Source of the DNA: Prochlorococcus sp. MIT 0603 | GTDB taxonomy: Bacteria; Cyanobacteriota; Cyanobacteriia; PCC-6307; Cyanobiaceae | DNA length: 64,000 bases | NCBI RefSeq assembly: GCF_000760215.1 | Contig: NZ_JNAW01000004.1 | Location: 186,001-250,000 of the forward strand | Direction: 5' to 3' | Part shown: positions 3,327 to 29,333 of the stretch, piece after piece | Numbering within the stretch: the stretch's first letter is position 1 | How the letters are laid out: each line of letters opens with the position of its first letter | Notes under the pieces: model-generated | Told to the model about the DNA's origin: nothing | The model's database searches: none | The model's input: only the letters and a program-made list of their open reading frames with translations | Made by a program: the position numbers and the translations under genes

Positions 3327-4520
3327 TTATTTAATTATCTTGGAAACAACCCCTGCTCCAATTGTTCGGCCACCTTCACGAATAGCAAATCTCATTCCTT
3401 GTTCGATAGCAACAGGACAAATTAGTTCTCCTGTCATTTTAATATTGTCACCAGGCATAACCATTTCAACGTTACTTCCATCATCTGCTGTAAAAGCTGT
3501 GATTTGTCCAGTCACGTCAGTGGTACGAATATAGAACTGAGGTCTATAACCTGCAAAGAAAGGAGTATGTCTTCCACCCTCTTCTTTCTTAAGAACATAG
3601 ACCTGGCCTTCAAATTGAGTATGAGGTGTAATAGAACCTTTTTTAACCAAAACCATTCCACGCTCAATATCTTCTTTTTGAATACCTCTAAGCAAAAGGC
3701 CTACATTGTCACCTGCCATACCTTCATCTAAAAGCTTACGGAACATCTCAACACCGGTAACGGTTGTTAGACGGGTATCTCTTATACCAACTATCTCAAC
3801 CTCTTCTCCAACAGTTACTTTACCCCTTTCGATTCTTCCAGTTGCAACTGTACCTCTACCTGTAATTGAGAAAACATCCTCTACAGCCATCAAGAAAGGC
3901 TTATCAACCTCTCGCTCAGGCTCAGGTATAGATTCATCAACAGCATTCATTAACTCCTCTACTTTTCCCTCCCATTCAGCTTCACCTTCCAATGCCTTAA
4001 GTCCAGATACCTTAACAATTGGAACATCGTTAAAGCCATAACCTTCTAAAAGCTCGCCTATTTCCATCTCAACAAGTTCAATAATCTCAGGATCATCAAC
4101 CATGTCACACTTATTCAGTGCAACAACTAAAGCAGGCACTCCAACCTGTTTTGCCAAAAGGATATGCTCCTTAGTTTGAGCCATAGGGCCATCAGTGGCA
4201 GCACAAACAAGGATTGCTCCATCCATCTGCGCAGCACCTGTGATCATATTTTTTACATAATCAGCATGGCCTGGACAGTCGACATGGGCATAGTGCCTGC
4301 CATCAGTCTCATATTCAACATGAGCTGTATTAATAGTGATACCGCGCTCTCTTTCTTCTGGAGCACCATCAATATCACCATAGTTTTGAGCTTGGGCTTG
4401 CCCTTTCTTAGCTAACACATTTGTGATAGCTGCGGTAAGGGTAGTTTTACCATGGTCAACATGTCCAATTGTCCCAATGTTGACATGTGGTTTGTTTCTT
4501 TCGAACTTCTCTCTGGCCAT
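3327..4520 (-). CDS. tuf: Translation elongation factor Tu
   Basis: 397-residue GTPase that brings aminoacyl-tRNA to the ribosome. The P-loop GHVDHGKTT, the [12 protein letters not shown] switch II segment and NKCD guanine-recognition motif are all present, followed by the two beta-barrel domains ending [10 protein letters not shown]. It lies 46 bp after fusA in the str operon, transcribed leftward. Several reading frames on the opposite strand are artefacts of this strongly codon-biased gene. Confidence 0.98.
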
Positions 4521-4566
4521 TTGTTTAAAGAATCAGTTTAATAATAGACGATTGGTGATGAAGATA

Positions 4567-6642
4567 TCAGGAATTACCCTGATTCTTAGAGATGATTGCT
4601 TCAGCAACATTGCGAGGGACTTCCTCGTATTGACTAAACTCCATAGAAAATATACCTCGGCCTTGAGTCATAGATCTAAGTTGGGTGGCGTAACCGAACA
4701 TTTCTGCCAAAGGAACCTTGGACTGAACTTTTGAAATTCCATCATCAATAGATTGACCTTCAACTTGACCCCTACGAGAAGAAAGATCTCCAATAATAGA
4801 ACCTAAGAAATCTTCAGGCACCTCAACTTCTACTTTCATCATGGGTTCGAGTAGGACTGGATTGCATTTTTTAACTCCGTCTTTAAATGCCATTGAGCCA
4901 GCAATCTTAAAAGCCATTTCAGATGAATCAACATCATGGAAAGAACCGTCAACCATCGTTACTTTGACATCAATTAATGGATAACCCGCCAAGACGCCAG
5001 ATTCACAAGTTTCTTTCATACCATTTGAAGCTGGTCCAATATATTCCTTAGGAACAACACCTCCAACAATTTTATTAACAAATTCAAACCCTGAGCCGGG
5101 TTCACCTGGTTCCATTTCAATAACAACATGACCATATTGTCCCTTTCCACCTGTCTGGCGAGCGTATTTCCCTTCTCCTTTTGAACTAGATCTGATTGTT
5201 TCTCTATAAGAAACCTGAGGTGCTCCAATATTTGCTTCAACTTTAAACTCACGAAGCATCCTATCGACAAGAATCTCCAAGTGCAATTCGCCCATTCCAG
5301 CTATAACTGTCTGATTTGTTTCTTGATCTGTACTAACCCTGAATGTTGGATCTTCCTCAGCTAAAGAAATCAAAGCCTTTGAAAGTTTTTCCATATCACC
5401 CTTAGTTTTAGGTTCAACAGCAACTGAAATAACTGGTTCAGGAACAAAAAGCGTCTCAAGGACAATGGGGTCATCTGTTGAACACAATGTGTCACCAGTG
5501 GTTGTATTTTTCAAACCAAGTACAGCACCTAAATCACCAGCACGTAATTGATCAACCTCCTCACGATCATCTGCCTTTAAAACTACTAATCTTGATATCC
5601 TTTCTTTCGTATCCTTAGTTGAATTGAGTACATAACTACCCTTTTCAAGAACACCTGAATACATTCTTACAAAAGTTAATTTCCCATATGGATCAGCCAT
5701 TACTTTAAAAGCCAATGCACTAAAGGGGGCATTGTCTTCAGATGGTCTTACATCTTCCTTGCCATTTGGCAAAATGCCTTGAATAGGCGGAACATCTATC
5801 GGAGCAGGCAAATAATCAATAACAGCATCTAAAACCAACTGAACACCTTTATTTTTAAAAGCTGATCCACATAACATTGGGACAAGTCCATGTTTTAAGA
5901 CACCTTCTCTAATACCTTTCTTCAACTGCTCAACTGATAATTCCCCATTATCAAGGAAACTTTCAATTAATTCTTCATCAGTCTCTGCAACAGTTTCCAT
6001 TAATTTGCTTCGCCACTCAGCTGCCTCAGCTGCCATTTCAGAAGGGATATCAGTCTCTTCGATATCAGTTCCTAGATCATTTTTATATATATATGCTTTA
6101 TTTCCAACTAGATCAATAATCCCACTTAAATTACCTTCTGAACCTATAGGAAGTTGAATTGGCACAGCATTTGCTTTAAGTCGATCTTTTATTTGTCCAT
6201 AAACCTTTAAGAAATCAGCCCCTGTTCGATCCATCTTATTGACAAAGACCATTCGAGGCACTGTATAACGATCAGCTTGTCTCCAAACTGTCTCTGACTG
6301 TGGCTGAACTCCACCTACAGCGCAAAAAACCGCTATGACTCCATCCAGGACTCTCATAGATCTTTCAACTTCAATAGTGAAGTCGACGTGACCTGGAGTG
6401 TCAATAATGTTAACCCGATGTTCCTGCCAACTGGTTGAAATGGCAGCAGCTGTGATGGTTATGCCTCTTTCTCTTTCCTGGGCCATCCAATCTGTGACAG
6501 CAGCACCATCATGGACTTCACCAATTTTGTGAACAACACCTGAATAGAAAAGAATCCTTTCAGTTGTAGTGGTTTTTCCAGCATCAATATGTGCTGCAAT
6601 ACCAATATTCCTAACTCGTTCTAGGGGGAAGGCTCGAGCCAC
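4567..6642 (-). CDS. fusA: Translation elongation factor G
   Basis: 691-residue translocase GTPase. It shows the P-loop [23 protein letters not shown] and NKMD motifs in the G domain and the typical C-terminal [19 protein letters not shown] segment of domains IV-V. The start codon is GTG at 6640-6642, giving the standard [15 protein letters not shown] beginning. It is the third gene of the str operon, 92 bp after rpsG. Confidence 0.98.
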
Positions 6643-6734
6643 AGCTATTACTCCAGTTGCAAGATTTAAAAGCGGATGTGACTCTACAGGTCAACAGGTA
6701 AAAAGTGAATCTTTTAGAGGTTTTTATCTAAAAA

Positions 6735-7205
6735 TCAATAACGATAATGAGCAAAAGCCTTATTTGCTTCAGCCATTTTATGGGTTTCCTCACGTTTACG
6801 TACTGCACTCCCAGCCTCATTTGCAGCATCCATTAACTCACCTGCAAGCTTGTGAGCCATACTTCTCCCATTTCTGGATCTGGAGAAATTGACAAGCCAT
6901 CTTAAAGCCATTGCTGTGCCACGTTCCTGACGAACTTCCATAGGAACTTGATAAGTTGCACCCCCAACTCGCCTAGCCCTTACTTCAACGAGAGGAGTGG
7001 CATTCTTTATAGCTGTTTCAAAAAGCTCTATAGGATCTCCGCCAGTCCTTTCATTAATCAAACCAAAAGCTTGAGATAAAATCCTCTGAGCCGTGGACTT
7101 CTTTCCATGTTTCATTAATCTAGCAACCATCATCGTTGCCAAGCGATTATTAAATTGTGGGTCAGGTAAAACTGGCCTTTTCTCTGCGGCGTTTCGTCTT
7201 GACAT
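6735..7205 (-). CDS. rpsG: 30S ribosomal protein S7
   Basis: 156 residues, full length for S7, starting [16 protein letters not shown] and ending in the [20 protein letters not shown] segment. It binds the 3' major domain of 16S rRNA and nucleates assembly of the head. Second gene of the str operon, 41 bp after rpsL. Confidence 0.97.
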
Positions 7206-24921: not shown

Positions 24922-26022
24922 TTATTTGCCAGACTTCCTTCTATTATCTTCTCTACAAAGCAACTGGCAATTATCTGATGTTGTTTGCCCTCCTAAATGC
25001 CAAGGGGTGATGTGATCACATTCCATTCCATCTATATCAAAAACTTTTCCACAGTATTTGCAGTGACCACTTTGTCTTTCATAAGCCTCTCTCTTTTGTT
25101 TTTGGGTAAAAGATCTTATATTAAGGAATTTTTCTTTTCGCTTTAAAACATAATAATAAATACCTTTCTTATTAGTAACATCTTCATCTTGCATTAAGTC
25201 AAGAATTTCTTCTTCTAATTTATCTGCAGATAATTGCTGTTCACTAAAAGAGTTAAATAATTCACCCCATTCAATCCCTTTCATTTCCTTTCGATAAACG
25301 GGAAATGTTTTCCTTAGCCAATCAATTATCTTTTGGAAATAAATCCACAATTCTTCAGCACTTTTATTCTTTTGATTACAAGCCATAAAATATTCAATAT
25401 TATTTTTGCTCTTCCATTTAATGATCGCTTCTAAATAATCTTGTCGAATAGGTGATCCATTCATATAATCTTTTCCATAACCATAGGCAGGACAATTATT
25501 CCTACTGAAATATTTTTTAGCATCAGTAACCCAAGGGCCAGAATATACAGCATTTCTTAATTCCTGGTCAGCAAGCTTTTCTCCTGCAATATTAATTGTC
25601 TTAAACCATTCCAATTTTTCACTATCAGTACCGCTACAGATATAAATCATAAGTTGATAATTTAAAATTCGATCTTGCTCATCATCCTGCAAATTATGGA
25701 AAGCTCTTAGAGCATTGATATTTCCTAGCTTTACAGAGAAATCGCCTTCAACATATCTACAAATTGATATTGTCCTTTGCTGGCCATCAATAATCTCAAA
25801 ATCACCATCTGATCTTTTAGCCCAATACATAACATTCAAGGGATAATTTTTACTTACTGTGTCAATAACTGCATCCCTTTGAGCATCCTTATATATAAAT
25901 TCTCTTTGATATGGAGGACGTATATTTAAATGACCACTATAAGCAAATACTCCCTCCTCCAGATTATCAACATAGCCTTCAGAAAGTTGCCTTATAGTTA
26001 TTTCATGAAGTTGAATTTCCAT
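24922..26022 (-). CDS. DUF262 domain fused to HNH nuclease (defence-type)
   Basis: 366 residues. The N-terminal DUF262 (ParB/Srx-like) domain shows the family signature RPPYQREFIY near residue 35, DGQQRTISICRY at about 79-90 and the NIAGEKLADQELRNAVYSG segment. The C-terminus is an HNH nuclease with zinc ligands CKYC (about 321-324), the active-site DH in ECDHITPWHLGG and a second pair spaced as CQLLC. Related DUF262 nucleases (GmrSD, SspE, BrxU) restrict DNA according to its modification state. It follows the adenine methylase gene by 70 bp on the same strand. Codons are AT-rich compared with neighbours, which suggests acquisition. Confidence 0.85.
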   Translation of the reverse strand: MEIQLHEITIRQLSEGYVDNLEEGVFAYSGHLNIRPPYQREFIYKDAQRDAVIDTVSKNYPLNVMYWAKRSDGDFEIIDGQQRTISICRYVEGDFSVKLGNINALRAFHNLQDDEQDRILNYQLMIYICSGTDSEKLEWFKTINIAGEKLADQELRNAVYSGPWVTDAKKYFSRNNCPAYGYGKDYMNGSPIRQDYLEAIIKWKSKNNIEYFMACNQKNKSAEELWIYFQKIIDWLRKTFPVYRKEMKGIEWGELFNSFSEQQLSADKLEEEILDLMQDEDVTNKKGIYYYVLKRKEKFLNIRSFTQKQKREAYERQSGHCKYCGKVFDIDGMECDHITPWHLGGQTTSDNCQLLCREDNRRKSGK

Positions 26023-26092
26023 ATCATGATTATATCAAGAGCATAGTAAGCAATATCATCTTATTTAATTTTAACTCCTTAACATATTTTAT

Positions 26093-27184
26093 TCACTTCA
26101 TTTTTTTAACTAGGATTCTTGCATAACATTTAATATAATATTGATTATCAACTATATAAAATGTTTTATTAGAAGGTGGTAATTCAACCTTGATAGCCGC
26201 TCCATCGTTTAATTTTTTAACCCTTGATCTTTGACCACTTGAATTAACTTGTATTTGAGTTGGATAAACTTTAGATGCTAAGCCATCCCAACTTTGAGTA
26301 GTCCCAATAATCTGGAATTGTTCGGGATTATATTTATCAAGAAAAGTCAAAGGAACACCCATCATTCCATCATAATCTATGGGTATATCTTTAGTCTTAT
26401 TAACCTCAATAGCATTATGGTTATCATAACTTGGATATTCAAATGGATTATATTTTTTATAGAGTATAATATCATTATAACGTTCTTTATAATCCATATT
26501 AGTAAACCATCTAACCCCTTTAATTCTTATATATTTTTTACCTTTAGAATCAGTCCTTGAGCTTGCTGCCTTTAAAGGATAATCATCAGGGACACCAAAT
26601 TCTCTATCGCCACTTCTAATACTAGGTCCAAGCCATATTTTATTATCTCTTATAAGTCTAAAAATTTCTTTATATGATGTAGCATTTATATTTCCAATTA
26701 CGAGATATTTTTTCTTATATTCTTCTAATTGTGAAATATATTCCCTAAATAATGAAAAAGGAGGATTTGTCACAACAATATCGCATGACTTTAGAATTTC
26801 AATATTTTCCTGATTTCTAAAATCACCATTACCTTTAAACTCTTTTATTTGAATTTCTTCTAGATCTGGAACTTTATTTTTATTCTTATCACCTTCATAT
26901 TCTAAATATATAGATTTTATAGAGTTATGTTGACTAAATAAGTCTATGTCTTGATTCTTATAGCAACTAGTAATTAATTTTTTTAATCCCAATTTTTCAA
27001 AATTATATGAAAAATAATGAAAAAACTGACTAGATCTTGGATCGTCACAATTACAATAAACTACCTTATTAAGAAAATGATGTTGATAGTATTTTAATTC
27101 TTTTTCAATGTCACTAAGTTGAGTATAGAATTCATCTTTTTTATTCTCTCTTGCCTCAGATAAACTTAAGTTTCCTTGTGGCAT
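26093..27184 (-). CDS. EcoRI-family adenine-specific DNA methyltransferase
   Basis: 363 residues. Motif IV is NPPF at about 140-143 within CDIVVTNPPFSLFREYI, which marks N6-adenine chemistry. The segment VYCNCDDPRSSQFFHYF near residue 43 and the KKDEFYTQ start are typical of the M.EcoRI-like family, as are GVRWFTN and the YDGMMGVPLTFLDKYNP block. The family methylates adenine in duplex DNA, for M.EcoRI in GAATTC; the target here is unknown. No EcoRI-like endonuclease is next to it; its partner appears to be the DUF262-HNH gene downstream. Sampled lines are only about 17-33% G+C. Confidence 0.88.
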   Translation of the reverse strand: MPQGNLSLSEARENKKDEFYTQLSDIEKELKYYQHHFLNKVVYCNCDDPRSSQFFHYFSYNFEKLGLKKLITSCYKNQDIDLFSQHNSIKSIYLEYEGDKNKNKVPDLEEIQIKEFKGNGDFRNQENIEILKSCDIVVTNPPFSLFREYISQLEEYKKKYLVIGNINATSYKEIFRLIRDNKIWLGPSIRSGDREFGVPDDYPLKAASSRTDSKGKKYIRIKGVRWFTNMDYKERYNDIILYKKYNPFEYPSYDNHNAIEVNKTKDIPIDYDGMMGVPLTFLDKYNPEQFQIIGTTQSWDGLASKVYPTQIQVNSSGQRSRVKKLNDGAAIKVELPPSNKTFYIVDNQYYIKCYARILVKKMK

Positions 27185-27247: not shown

Positions 27248-27262
27248 AAAATGGAGAGGGAG
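27248..27262. repeat. Imperfect copy of the tRNA-Ser 3' end
   Basis: The stretch aaaatggagagggag matches aaaacggagagggag at 27453-27467, which spans the 3' end of the tRNA-Ser gene, at 14 of 15 positions. A looser cttgaat follows each copy further downstream. Integrating elements often leave such duplicated tRNA ends. The copy is short and could be chance. Confidence 0.35.
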
Positions 27263-27456
27263 AACTTTCACTTGAATCACACTGACCCCATGTGAACTGG
27301 AAAGAACCTCTCAATTGTTGAAAATGGGTTTTTCCCAACAACACACAAGTGAACTAGCATGAATTCACAGGAATCAAACAGATAACCTCTATTAAGTCAT
27401 AGCAGTGAATCTCAGTTTTTTGGACTTGAATGAACTCTTCTGAACCAAAGTAAAAA
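27263..27456. other. Non-coding gap between the methylase gene and tRNA-Ser
   Basis: About 190 bp with no ORF I would support. It has higher G+C than the island genes and repeats of tgaac (within tgtgaactgg, agtgaactag, atgaactctt). A weak inverted repeat ttgtt...gggtttttccc...aacaa lies around 27315-27345. Purpose unknown; a remnant of an insertion junction is possible. Confidence 0.3.
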
Positions 27457-27545
27457 CGGAGAGGGAGGGATTCGAACCCTCGACAGGAGTTGCCTCCTGT
27501 AACTCCTTAGCAGGGAGCCGCTTTCAACCACTCAGCCACCTCTCC
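27457..27545 (-). tRNA. trnS: tRNA-Ser(GCU)
   Basis: On the minus strand an acceptor stem ggagagg pairs with cctctcc, with discriminator G and no encoded CCA. The D-arm starts tggctgagtgg, the anticodon loop reads ctccctgctaaggag with anticodon GCT, and the long variable arm (ttacaggaggcaactcctgt) identifies a class II serine tRNA. The T-arm is gggttcgaatcccc-like. It reads AGC/AGU codons. Confidence 0.96.
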
Positions 27546-27615
27546 AGAAGTAGCATTATTACCTTATCAAGGCATACTCAATATCCAAAGGAAATATCTG
27601 GATTCTTCAGAAATA

Positions 27616-28835: not shown

Positions 28836-29333
28836 ATGAGCCAGGTTCTAGTTCTAAATGCATCCTATGAACCTCTAAACATTACAAGTTGGCGCAGAGC
28901 CACTGTCCTGATGCTAAAGGGTAAAGCTGAAAGTTTAGAAGAAGACTCAAATCATAAAATTAGAAATGATATAAGGCTGCCAACTGTTATTCGTCTTAGA
29001 TACTTTGTTAAAGTTCCTTATAGGGAATTAGCACTTAATAAAAAAAACCTTATTCAAAGGGACCATAATTCCTGCCAATACTGCGGTTATACTGGCCCAA
29101 AATTATCAATTGATCATGTAATTCCTCGCAGCAGAGGTGGTCAAGATGTTTGGGAAAATGTTGCTATAGCTTGTATTTCATGCAATATAAAAAAAGGCAA
29201 TAGGACTATTCAAGAAGCTAATATGCCATTAAGGAAAAAACCACATAAACCATTAAATTCAATCGGTCTTGAAGCTACAAAACAAATAAACTCAGGCCAG
29301 CATAAAGAATGGAGTAAATACGTAATTGGATGA
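28836..29333 (+). CDS. HNH endonuclease-domain protein (conserved cyanobacterial)
   Basis: 165 residues. It begins MSQVLVLNASYEPLNITSWR, then a beta-rich part, then an HNH motif: CQYCGY zinc pair, DHVIPRSRGG active site, and NVAIACISCNIKKGNRT second pair. Proteins with this N-terminus are widespread single-copy genes in cyanobacteria and other bacteria, so it looks core rather than mobile. The DNA target is unknown. Ends 9 bp from convergent prfA. Confidence 0.88.
   Translation: MSQVLVLNASYEPLNITSWRRATVLMLKGKAESLEEDSNHKIRNDIRLPTVIRLRYFVKVPYRELALNKKNLIQRDHNSCQYCGYTGPKLSIDHVIPRSRGGQDVWENVAIACISCNIKKGNRTIQEANMPLRKKPHKPLNSIGLEATKQINSGQHKEWSKYVIG

Follow-up and report, generated by a model that had tools for sequence, protein, structure and literature searches.

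A two-gene unit on the minus strand of Prochlorococcus sp. MIT 0603, located in a window of 64,000 nucleotides (contig NZ_JNAW01000004.1, positions 186,001 to 250,000), comprises a gene for an EcoRI-family adenine methylase (M) placed 5' of a gene for a DUF262-HNH nuclease (R), with a spacing of 70 bp. With moderate confidence, this unit is read as a mobile two-gene restriction-modification (R-M) system, in which M serves as both the modification and the specificity subunit, and R is a nucleotide-gated nuclease that itself lacks sequence specificity. In logic the system resembles Type III, with M as its most likely specificity subunit and a ParB-fold/HNH nuclease in place of the helicase-nuclease. 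The features computed here are the obligate pairing of the two families, their motifs and predicted folds, the exchange of target recognition domains (TRDs) in M beside an R that hardly varies, and the constancy of these domains in methylases that are paired with an EcoRI endonuclease.

Both open reading frames (ORFs) are intact from start to stop, and their positions agree with the first-pass annotation of this DNA, whose account of an EcoRI-family methylase and a DUF262-HNH nuclease on one strand, 70 bp apart, is confirmed by ORFs, Pfam domains and motifs alike. M matches the Pfam family EcoRI_methylase (PF13651) over residues 8-361 (E 1.7e-130, 435.8 bits; cut-off 26.4), and R matches GmrSD_N (PF03235, DUF262) over residues 34-160 (E 4.6e-17, 63.2 bits; cut-off 33.2), followed by a C-terminal HNH match (PF01844) over residues 321-364 (E 1.2e-12). 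No EcoRI endonuclease (PF02963) turned up in the MIT 0603 genome, again in line with the first-pass annotation. In PADLOC, the REase_II model PDLC03418 covers R at full length (E 3.7e-132) and MTase_II covers residues 7-303 of M (E 1.7e-115); the R-M-like unit proposed from the sequence is therefore real but belongs to families already known, as both genes are on file there as Type II R-M. The features of the pair, in window coordinates and amino acids (aa), with model confidence given as the predicted local distance difference test (pLDDT), are as follows.

26093..27184, minus strand: M, EcoRI-family N6-adenine DNA methylase, proposed specificity subunit; 363 aa; PF13651, PADLOC MTase_II, class-I methyltransferase model
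26756..26767, minus strand: NPPF, the catalytic motif of M, aa 140-143; unchanged across alignments of 14 and of 50 methylases
26519..26632, minus strand: TRD1 of M, aa 185-222, a variable segment, assigned from variability among methylases
26096..26302, minus strand: TRD2 of M, aa 295-363, a second variable segment, assigned from variability among methylases
24922..26022, minus strand: R, DUF262(GmrSD_N)-HNH nuclease; 366 aa; PF03235 and PF01844, PADLOC REase_II; model pLDDT 91.3
25903..25920, minus strand: RPPYQR motif of R, aa 35-40; P36, Q39 and R40 constant in both nuclease alignments (19 and 48 sequences)
25774..25788, minus strand: DGQQR, a motif of R at aa 79-83; unchanged across alignments of 19 and of 48 nucleases
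25582..26022, minus strand: N-terminal ParB/sulfiredoxin-like domain of R, aa 1-147, presumably nucleotide-binding (VIA-align)
24925..25113, minus strand: HNH nuclease domain of R, aa 304-366; match to 4h9d_C (Z 7.7, 65 aligned, 2.8 Å)

The pairing of the two families was followed through 169 R-centred loci (the best 80 of 443 genome-contig relatives, the best 80 of 169 viral-contig relatives and 9 phylum loci), a set that includes near-copies. An EcoRI-type M is present at 162 of the 169, and 5 end too near upstream to judge; at L204 and L205, M was initially missed since R lies on the other strand, and both have M. R was never seen without M at the testable loci (162/162), and as both families are found together in each relative that could be tested, the pairing is not due to chance; the co-occurrence elsewhere that the first-pass annotation had raised is thus borne out. 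M lies upstream of R in 157 of the 162 loci, at no more than 300 nt in 146 of them, and downstream in the other 5, in every case on the same strand as R. Relatives of R are also present on plasmids (153 records, 43 of them with coverage of at least 80%) and in phages (78 records, 4 of them with that coverage), and all 18 of the plasmid and phage records opened have an EcoRI-type M near R; at L036 the M near R is frameshifted, and at L026 an optrA resistance gene lies between the two.

Starting instead from M, and with partners sought over a span of 2.5 kb, 50 of 80 viral loci have R (partial in 2 of these), 6 have an EcoRI endonuclease, 23 have neither and 1 lies at a contig end; for 22 phylum loci the numbers are 9, 10, 2 and 1 in the same order. 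Pfam confirmed PF02963 in each of four tested neighbours of M. On a FastTree phylogeny of 207 methylases, with local support values only, the nuclease partner changes once between R and the EcoRI endonuclease, and 15 changes separate R-paired from partnerless rows. An interrupted-looking M stands beside R in 8 of 164 cases (L043, L056, L062, L073, L097, L113, L170 and L175). Set aside from this count were L039 and L130, which lie near a contig end, L202, which has a late start, and L048, which carries a TGA in a record of Gracilibacteria, where TGA is recoded; nine further M genes beside R are truncated by the contig end. The absence of R without M, the persistence of M without R and the few interrupted M genes beside R all fit the reading in which M guides R. 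A toxicity test based on broken genes was discarded, as the rates of interrupted M and partial R are not clearly different and assembly error is possible.

Several loci depart from the simple pair. Two EcoRI-type methylases in tandem stand ahead of one nuclease at L025 (288-3011, with different TRD1) and L141 (3818-5984), where one nuclease is possibly served by two specificities. Three rumen Paludibacteraceae records (L052, L053 and L058) have one and the same ORF of 309 aa separating M from R, at about 5021-5947, and by eye its start resembles a DNA-binding segment. A Corynebacterium glutamicum genome, used as a control, matches PF13651.

The relation between the specificity of M and the sequence of R was assessed on 161 M-R pairs for covariation and on 167 R-paired systems for TRD1, in comparisons whose pair counts are not independent events. 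By single linkage, the TRD1 segments of 207 methylases fall into 30 groups, and the group to which M of MIT 0603 belongs has 31 members. Over the 161 pairs, the distance between nucleases follows the distance between methylase cores (rho 0.72), as opposed to that between TRD1 segments (rho 0.06), for which the partial correlation of 0.04 is smaller than the largest of 300 permutations (0.09); 15-residue windows slid along R, compared with TRD1 and TRD2 and scored with no permutation test, reach a partial r of 0.093 at most, and none stands out. When two nucleases are at least 0.8 identical (83 comparisons), TRD1 is unrelated in 60-67% and the same in 28-32%. Similarly, 72 of the 161 nucleases have a nearest relative of at least 80% identity, beside which TRD1 is unrelated in 37, the same in 28 and in between in 7. 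At a methylase-core identity of 0.8-0.9, the identity of R is 0.725 where TRD1 is shared (n=86) versus 0.728 where it differs (n=138), and TRD1 itself is the same in 87 and unrelated in 144 of 253 R-paired comparisons. The 20 nucleases nearest to R of MIT 0603 (64-69%) likewise lie next to methylases with the same and with unrelated TRD1 types alike, and among the named plasmid and phage records (17 methylases, two of one record) together with MIT 0603, TRD1 is unrelated in 90 and the same in 13 of 109 comparisons.

Individual pairs of loci display the exchange directly. Between L058 and L053, R differs at 4 of 360 positions and residues 21-160 of M are 95-100% identical in each 20-residue block, whereas two TRD1 blocks are 25-28% identical and TRD2 similarity is 0.31 over the full C-terminus. 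L059 and L053 differ at 6 of 360 positions of R, with an unrelated TRD1 (0.01) and a TRD2 that is partly alike (0.54); L205 and L203 differ at 21 of 385 positions, with a TRD1 of 0.23 and a TRD2 of 0.16. At the DNA level, identity between L053 and L058 falls within M and returns to 0.92-1.00 through R, and identity between L205 and L203 falls within M and returns to 0.85-0.98 through R (one block 0.77); such profiles are as expected if segments had been exchanged. Moreover, TRD1 and TRD2 reassort with respect to each other, for L090 and L071 share TRD1 (0.96) and not TRD2 (0.23), and L054 and L044 do so as well (0.88 and 0.19).

An internal control is provided by the methylases of the same family that accompany an EcoRI endonuclease. 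In 21 such systems, TRD1 is of one type in all 210 comparisons across methylase-core identities of 0.5-1.0, and six EcoRI plasmids agree in TRD1 in all 15 of their comparisons. For TRD2, the 19 EcoRI-paired systems with full C-termini give 156 of 171 comparisons as the same, 15 as intermediate and none as unrelated, as against 21 of 251 the same and 189 of 251 unrelated among the 167 R-paired systems with full C-termini at core identities of 0.8-0.9. The target of EcoRI is GAATTC. An EcoRI-type TRD1 is found in nine R-paired methylases and an EcoRI-type TRD2 in seven, both together only in L041 (Rickettsiales, 4205-7101), where the partner is a DUF262-HNH nuclease and a 287-aa ORF lies between M and R; from its TRDs, L041 is predicted to be a GAATTC system that uses a DUF262-HNH nuclease, with no EcoRI endonuclease beside M. 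That the EcoRI endonuclease and its methylase recognise one sequence is stated in PMC3983042. As a separate observation, short remnants of an EcoRI endonuclease lie next to an EcoRI-type methylase in three cyanobacteria (G116, G249 and G324; loci L407, L409 and L410), in which the nuclease is apparently decaying and the methylase kept.

These patterns bear first on an orthodox Type II arrangement, in which R would recognise the sequence of M on its own and cut it when unmethylated. The operon layout is that of Type II systems, R is never seen without M at testable loci, M is repeatedly kept where R is absent, and R is filed as REase_II in PADLOC. Own target reading by R would, however, require R to change with the TRDs, and R does not covary with TRD1: nucleases of 98-99% identity serve unrelated TRD1 types, and EcoRI pairs lack the TRD1 exchange seen in R pairs. 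In addition, an interrupted M beside R (8/164) should be lethal under this arrangement, if the interruptions are real. As R does not follow the TRDs of M, it probably does not read the target sequence itself, to judge from these comparisons, and the orthodox arrangement is considered quite improbable. Neither mechanism offered by the first-pass annotation fits as stated; the first, classical restriction by an unusual nuclease of matching specificity, is disfavoured by the decoupling of the nuclease from the methylase TRDs. Prediction of the target from palindrome avoidance was rejected: among avoided 6-bp palindromes, none is clearly specific to MIT 0603 (464 kb compared with 400 kb from each of two relatives), and the biggest MIT 0603-specific drops among degenerate palindromes are based on just 25-50 sites. 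GAATTC has observed/expected ratios of 0.71, 0.69 and 0.79, low in MIT 0603 and both relatives alike, and so says nothing on the M-R pair.

According to the favoured reading, in which M guides R, M would locate its target through TRD1 and TRD2 and methylate adenine in the host DNA; at an unmodified target in foreign DNA, M would engage R, whose ParB-fold DUF262 domain would bind or hydrolyse nucleotide and thereby free the HNH domain to cut. The contact between M and R, the use of nucleotide, the cutting and the role in defence are steps that we infer. The model of M (pLDDT 88.4) has a class-I methylase fold over approximately residues 12-231, and its structural matches, with Z values of up to 10.8, include M.TaqI (Z 10.2); TRD1 lies inside this span and TRD2 forms the C-terminal part. 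A PDB sequence search with M gave a best E of 0.099, which is not convincing, and Foldseek with the model of M returned nothing at E 0.001 or better. The model of R has a ParB-fold N-domain, a helical middle and a C-terminal HNH domain, of which D336, H337, N351 and N360 are constant in both nuclease alignments (19 and 48 sequences). By VIA-align, the N-domain matches SspE (6jiv_C; Z 7.1, 127 aligned, 3.5 Å) and ParB (7bnk_A; Z 6.1, 93 aligned, 3.5 Å); the Z values of these matches and of that to 4h9d are modest. BrxU is the top structural match of the model of R (Z 8.7, 252 residues) but at 15.4 Å, so the domain arrangement of R differs from that of BrxU. Both models are free of DNA, and the positions of the TRDs on DNA lie beyond them. 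For DGQQR, an action in nucleotide hydrolysis is proposed in PMC4619093.

The resemblance of the N-domain to SspE, BrxU and ParB also speaks for the main rival, a methylation-reading nuclease, in which R, having little sequence preference, would read the N6-methyladenine set by M, and methylated host DNA would activate, load or tune R against unmodified DNA, as proposed for SspE with phosphorothioates. A reader of N6-methyladenine that ignored sequence context would be decoupled from the TRDs just as R is, and the interrupted M genes beside R (8/164) would be tolerable if the nuclease were inert without M, although they are equally compatible with guidance by M or with sequencing error. The SspE precedent, as described in PMC12707154, includes growth arrest without its modification partner. 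An any-context reader would, on the other hand, respond to other adenine methylases too, and no known modification-reader domain other than GmrSD_N was found in R by Pfam. A licence of this kind, close to the second mechanism of the first-pass annotation, retains a minor share of the probability. Alternatively, R could be a Type IV-like modification-dependent nuclease that happens to lie beside an unrelated self-marking methylase, to which its GmrSD_N domain and its resemblance to BrxU would lend themselves. The DUF1524 domain, however, is not among the Pfam matches of R up to E 1, a PF01844 HNH standing in its place, the pairing with one methylase family is obligate, and Type IV enzymes need no cognate methylase, which leaves this alternative highly improbable.

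A number of points weigh against guidance of R by M. TRD1 and TRD2 are named from their variability and from their constancy in the EcoRI-paired clade, with no DNA-bound structure; that control comprises a single clade, hence one instance in evolution, and intermediate values account for 15 of its 171 comparisons of the full TRD2. The TRD2 figures derive from full C-termini (186 of 188 rows), earlier counts having rested on profile-trimmed ends, and TRD2 similarity is inflated by a common C-terminal tail; the repeat with full C-termini leaves the TRD1 results as before. Many of the R loci are derived from metagenomes, although the predominance of unrelated TRD1 is seen in the named plasmid and phage records too (90 of 109). 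A fused M-R protein was not found among the loci, and Foldseek with the model of R gave nothing at E 0.001 or better (best E 3.8e-3, weak). The M-R complex, its activity and its methylated motif are predictions.

In MIT 0603, the pair sits between psaL and tRNA-Ser(GCT), at one border of which two further features were recorded.

27456..27546, minus strand: tRNA-Ser(GCT), border of the variable gap holding the M-R pair
27248..27262, minus strand: 15-nt near-copy (14/15) of the 3' end of tRNA-Ser; a similar copy occurs in the relative G006, and it may predate the pair

With a probe spanning the tRNA and alr, the locus was recovered in 13 of 14 genomes of the genus, MIT 0603 included; in the remaining genome (G004) it matched only another tRNA-Ser. 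The pair is missing from the psaL-tRNA-Ser gap in all 11 relatives with both ends readable, whereas the first-pass annotation had named presence at the same place in all relatives as evidence against a defence pair. The gap measures 2884 bp in MIT 0603 and 132-517 bp in 8 of the 11 relatives; two others have gaps of 1302 and 1451 bp, each with one gene resembling the PAP2 gene of G006, and G006 has a gap of 3565 bp with this PAP2 gene and a different insert. That insert (L019 4069-7630) encodes a 331-aa protein without a Pfam match and a tetratricopeptide repeat (TPR) protein, and is accompanied by a near-copy of the 3' end of the tRNA; the gap has the look of a small hotspot. Integration mediated by the tRNA is not claimed for the pair, as G006 has a similar near-copy and context with its different insert on the other side; an integrase was not apparent among the ORFs of the MIT 0603 gap, and promoter and terminator scans gave signals not above those of shuffled sequences.

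R occurs in one of the 14 genus genomes, MIT 0603 itself, several of these genomes being incomplete, and R and M each occur in one of 300 family genomes (MIT 0603 alone; 197 of the 300 at least 90% complete), which upholds the view that such a pair is unexpected in streamlined picocyanobacteria. Over a phylum scan of 386 genomes, the further full-length R genes number nine, all in family f31 of another class, where two fragments were also found. The pair is thus a lone and probably recent acquisition in a variable gap, a streamlined picocyanobacterium having taken up such a unit beside tRNA-Ser. The AT-richness noted for the locus holds clearly for M (G+C 0.273) and only slightly for R (0.324, a little below the poorest of nine neighbouring genes, which range over 0.336-0.428). 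Another small HNH protein (165 aa, PF01844) is encoded nearby at 28836-29333, beyond alr and on the opposite strand.

A switch of target is hardly open to Type II systems, as it demands simultaneous change in two proteins. If R follows M, one methylase family would show both states, constant with the EcoRI endonuclease and free with the DUF262-HNH nuclease, and the evolution of restriction specificity would become directly testable through TRD swaps in one gene. More tentatively, and with somewhat less assurance than a toss-up would allow, the pairs may constitute a new R-M class spread across many bacterial phyla, plasmids and viral contigs, in which an EcoRI-type M is the exchangeable guide for a specificity-free, nucleotide-switched ParB-fold/HNH nuclease, and which would combine Type I/III-like evolvability with two genes of approximately 1.1 kb and no helicase; EcoRI would then be a side branch of the methylase family, in which acquisition of a self-sufficient endonuclease cost the methylase its freedom to switch target. 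Guidance of R by M, if it holds, would also amount to a compact re-targetable R-M system; a nuclease family at present listed under Type II would need redefining, and the nucleotide domain of DUF262 would gain a function beyond Type IV restriction.

A description of the M-R pair was not recognised in the open-access literature searched, subscription journals and REBASE being outside the search, and the pair can be set against known systems as follows. With EcoRI R-M (Type II), it shares a PF13651 methylase, members of which in cyanobacteria and plasmids are paired with the EcoRI endonuclease PF02963; it differs in that its nuclease is DUF262-HNH and not EcoRI-type, that M comes first in 157 of 162 R loci while the methylase follows the endonuclease in the EcoRI plasmids opened, and that TRD1 varies in R pairs and is of a single type in EcoRI pairs. 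The adjacent methylase and nuclease genes recall orthodox Type II systems in general, but a nuclease that matches M on its own is not what the TRDs, as an indirect measure, indicate; for the PADLOC model PDLC03418, which matches R at full length as putative Type II, the covariation argues against the assumed independent recognition. GmrSD and BrxU (Type IV) have in common with R the GmrSD_N (DUF262) domain with DGQQR, but R is accompanied by a methylase at every testable locus and ends in a short PF01844 HNH instead of the DUF1524 domain of GmrSD. SspE, identified in PMC12707154 as a DUF262-DUF1524 homologue, resembles R in the fold of the N-domain and differs from it in that the partner of R is an adenine methylase and its nuclease domain is PF01844. 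The closest likeness in logic is to Type III (Mod-Res), with a TRD-bearing methylase, exchangeable TRDs, which in Type III move between genes according to PMC3983042, and a nuclease without its own specificity; unlike Type III, the methylase is EcoRI-type and R is a protein of 366 aa with a ParB fold and an HNH domain, among whose Pfam matches up to E 1 there is no helicase or ATPase domain (superfamily 2 (SF2), Res-like).

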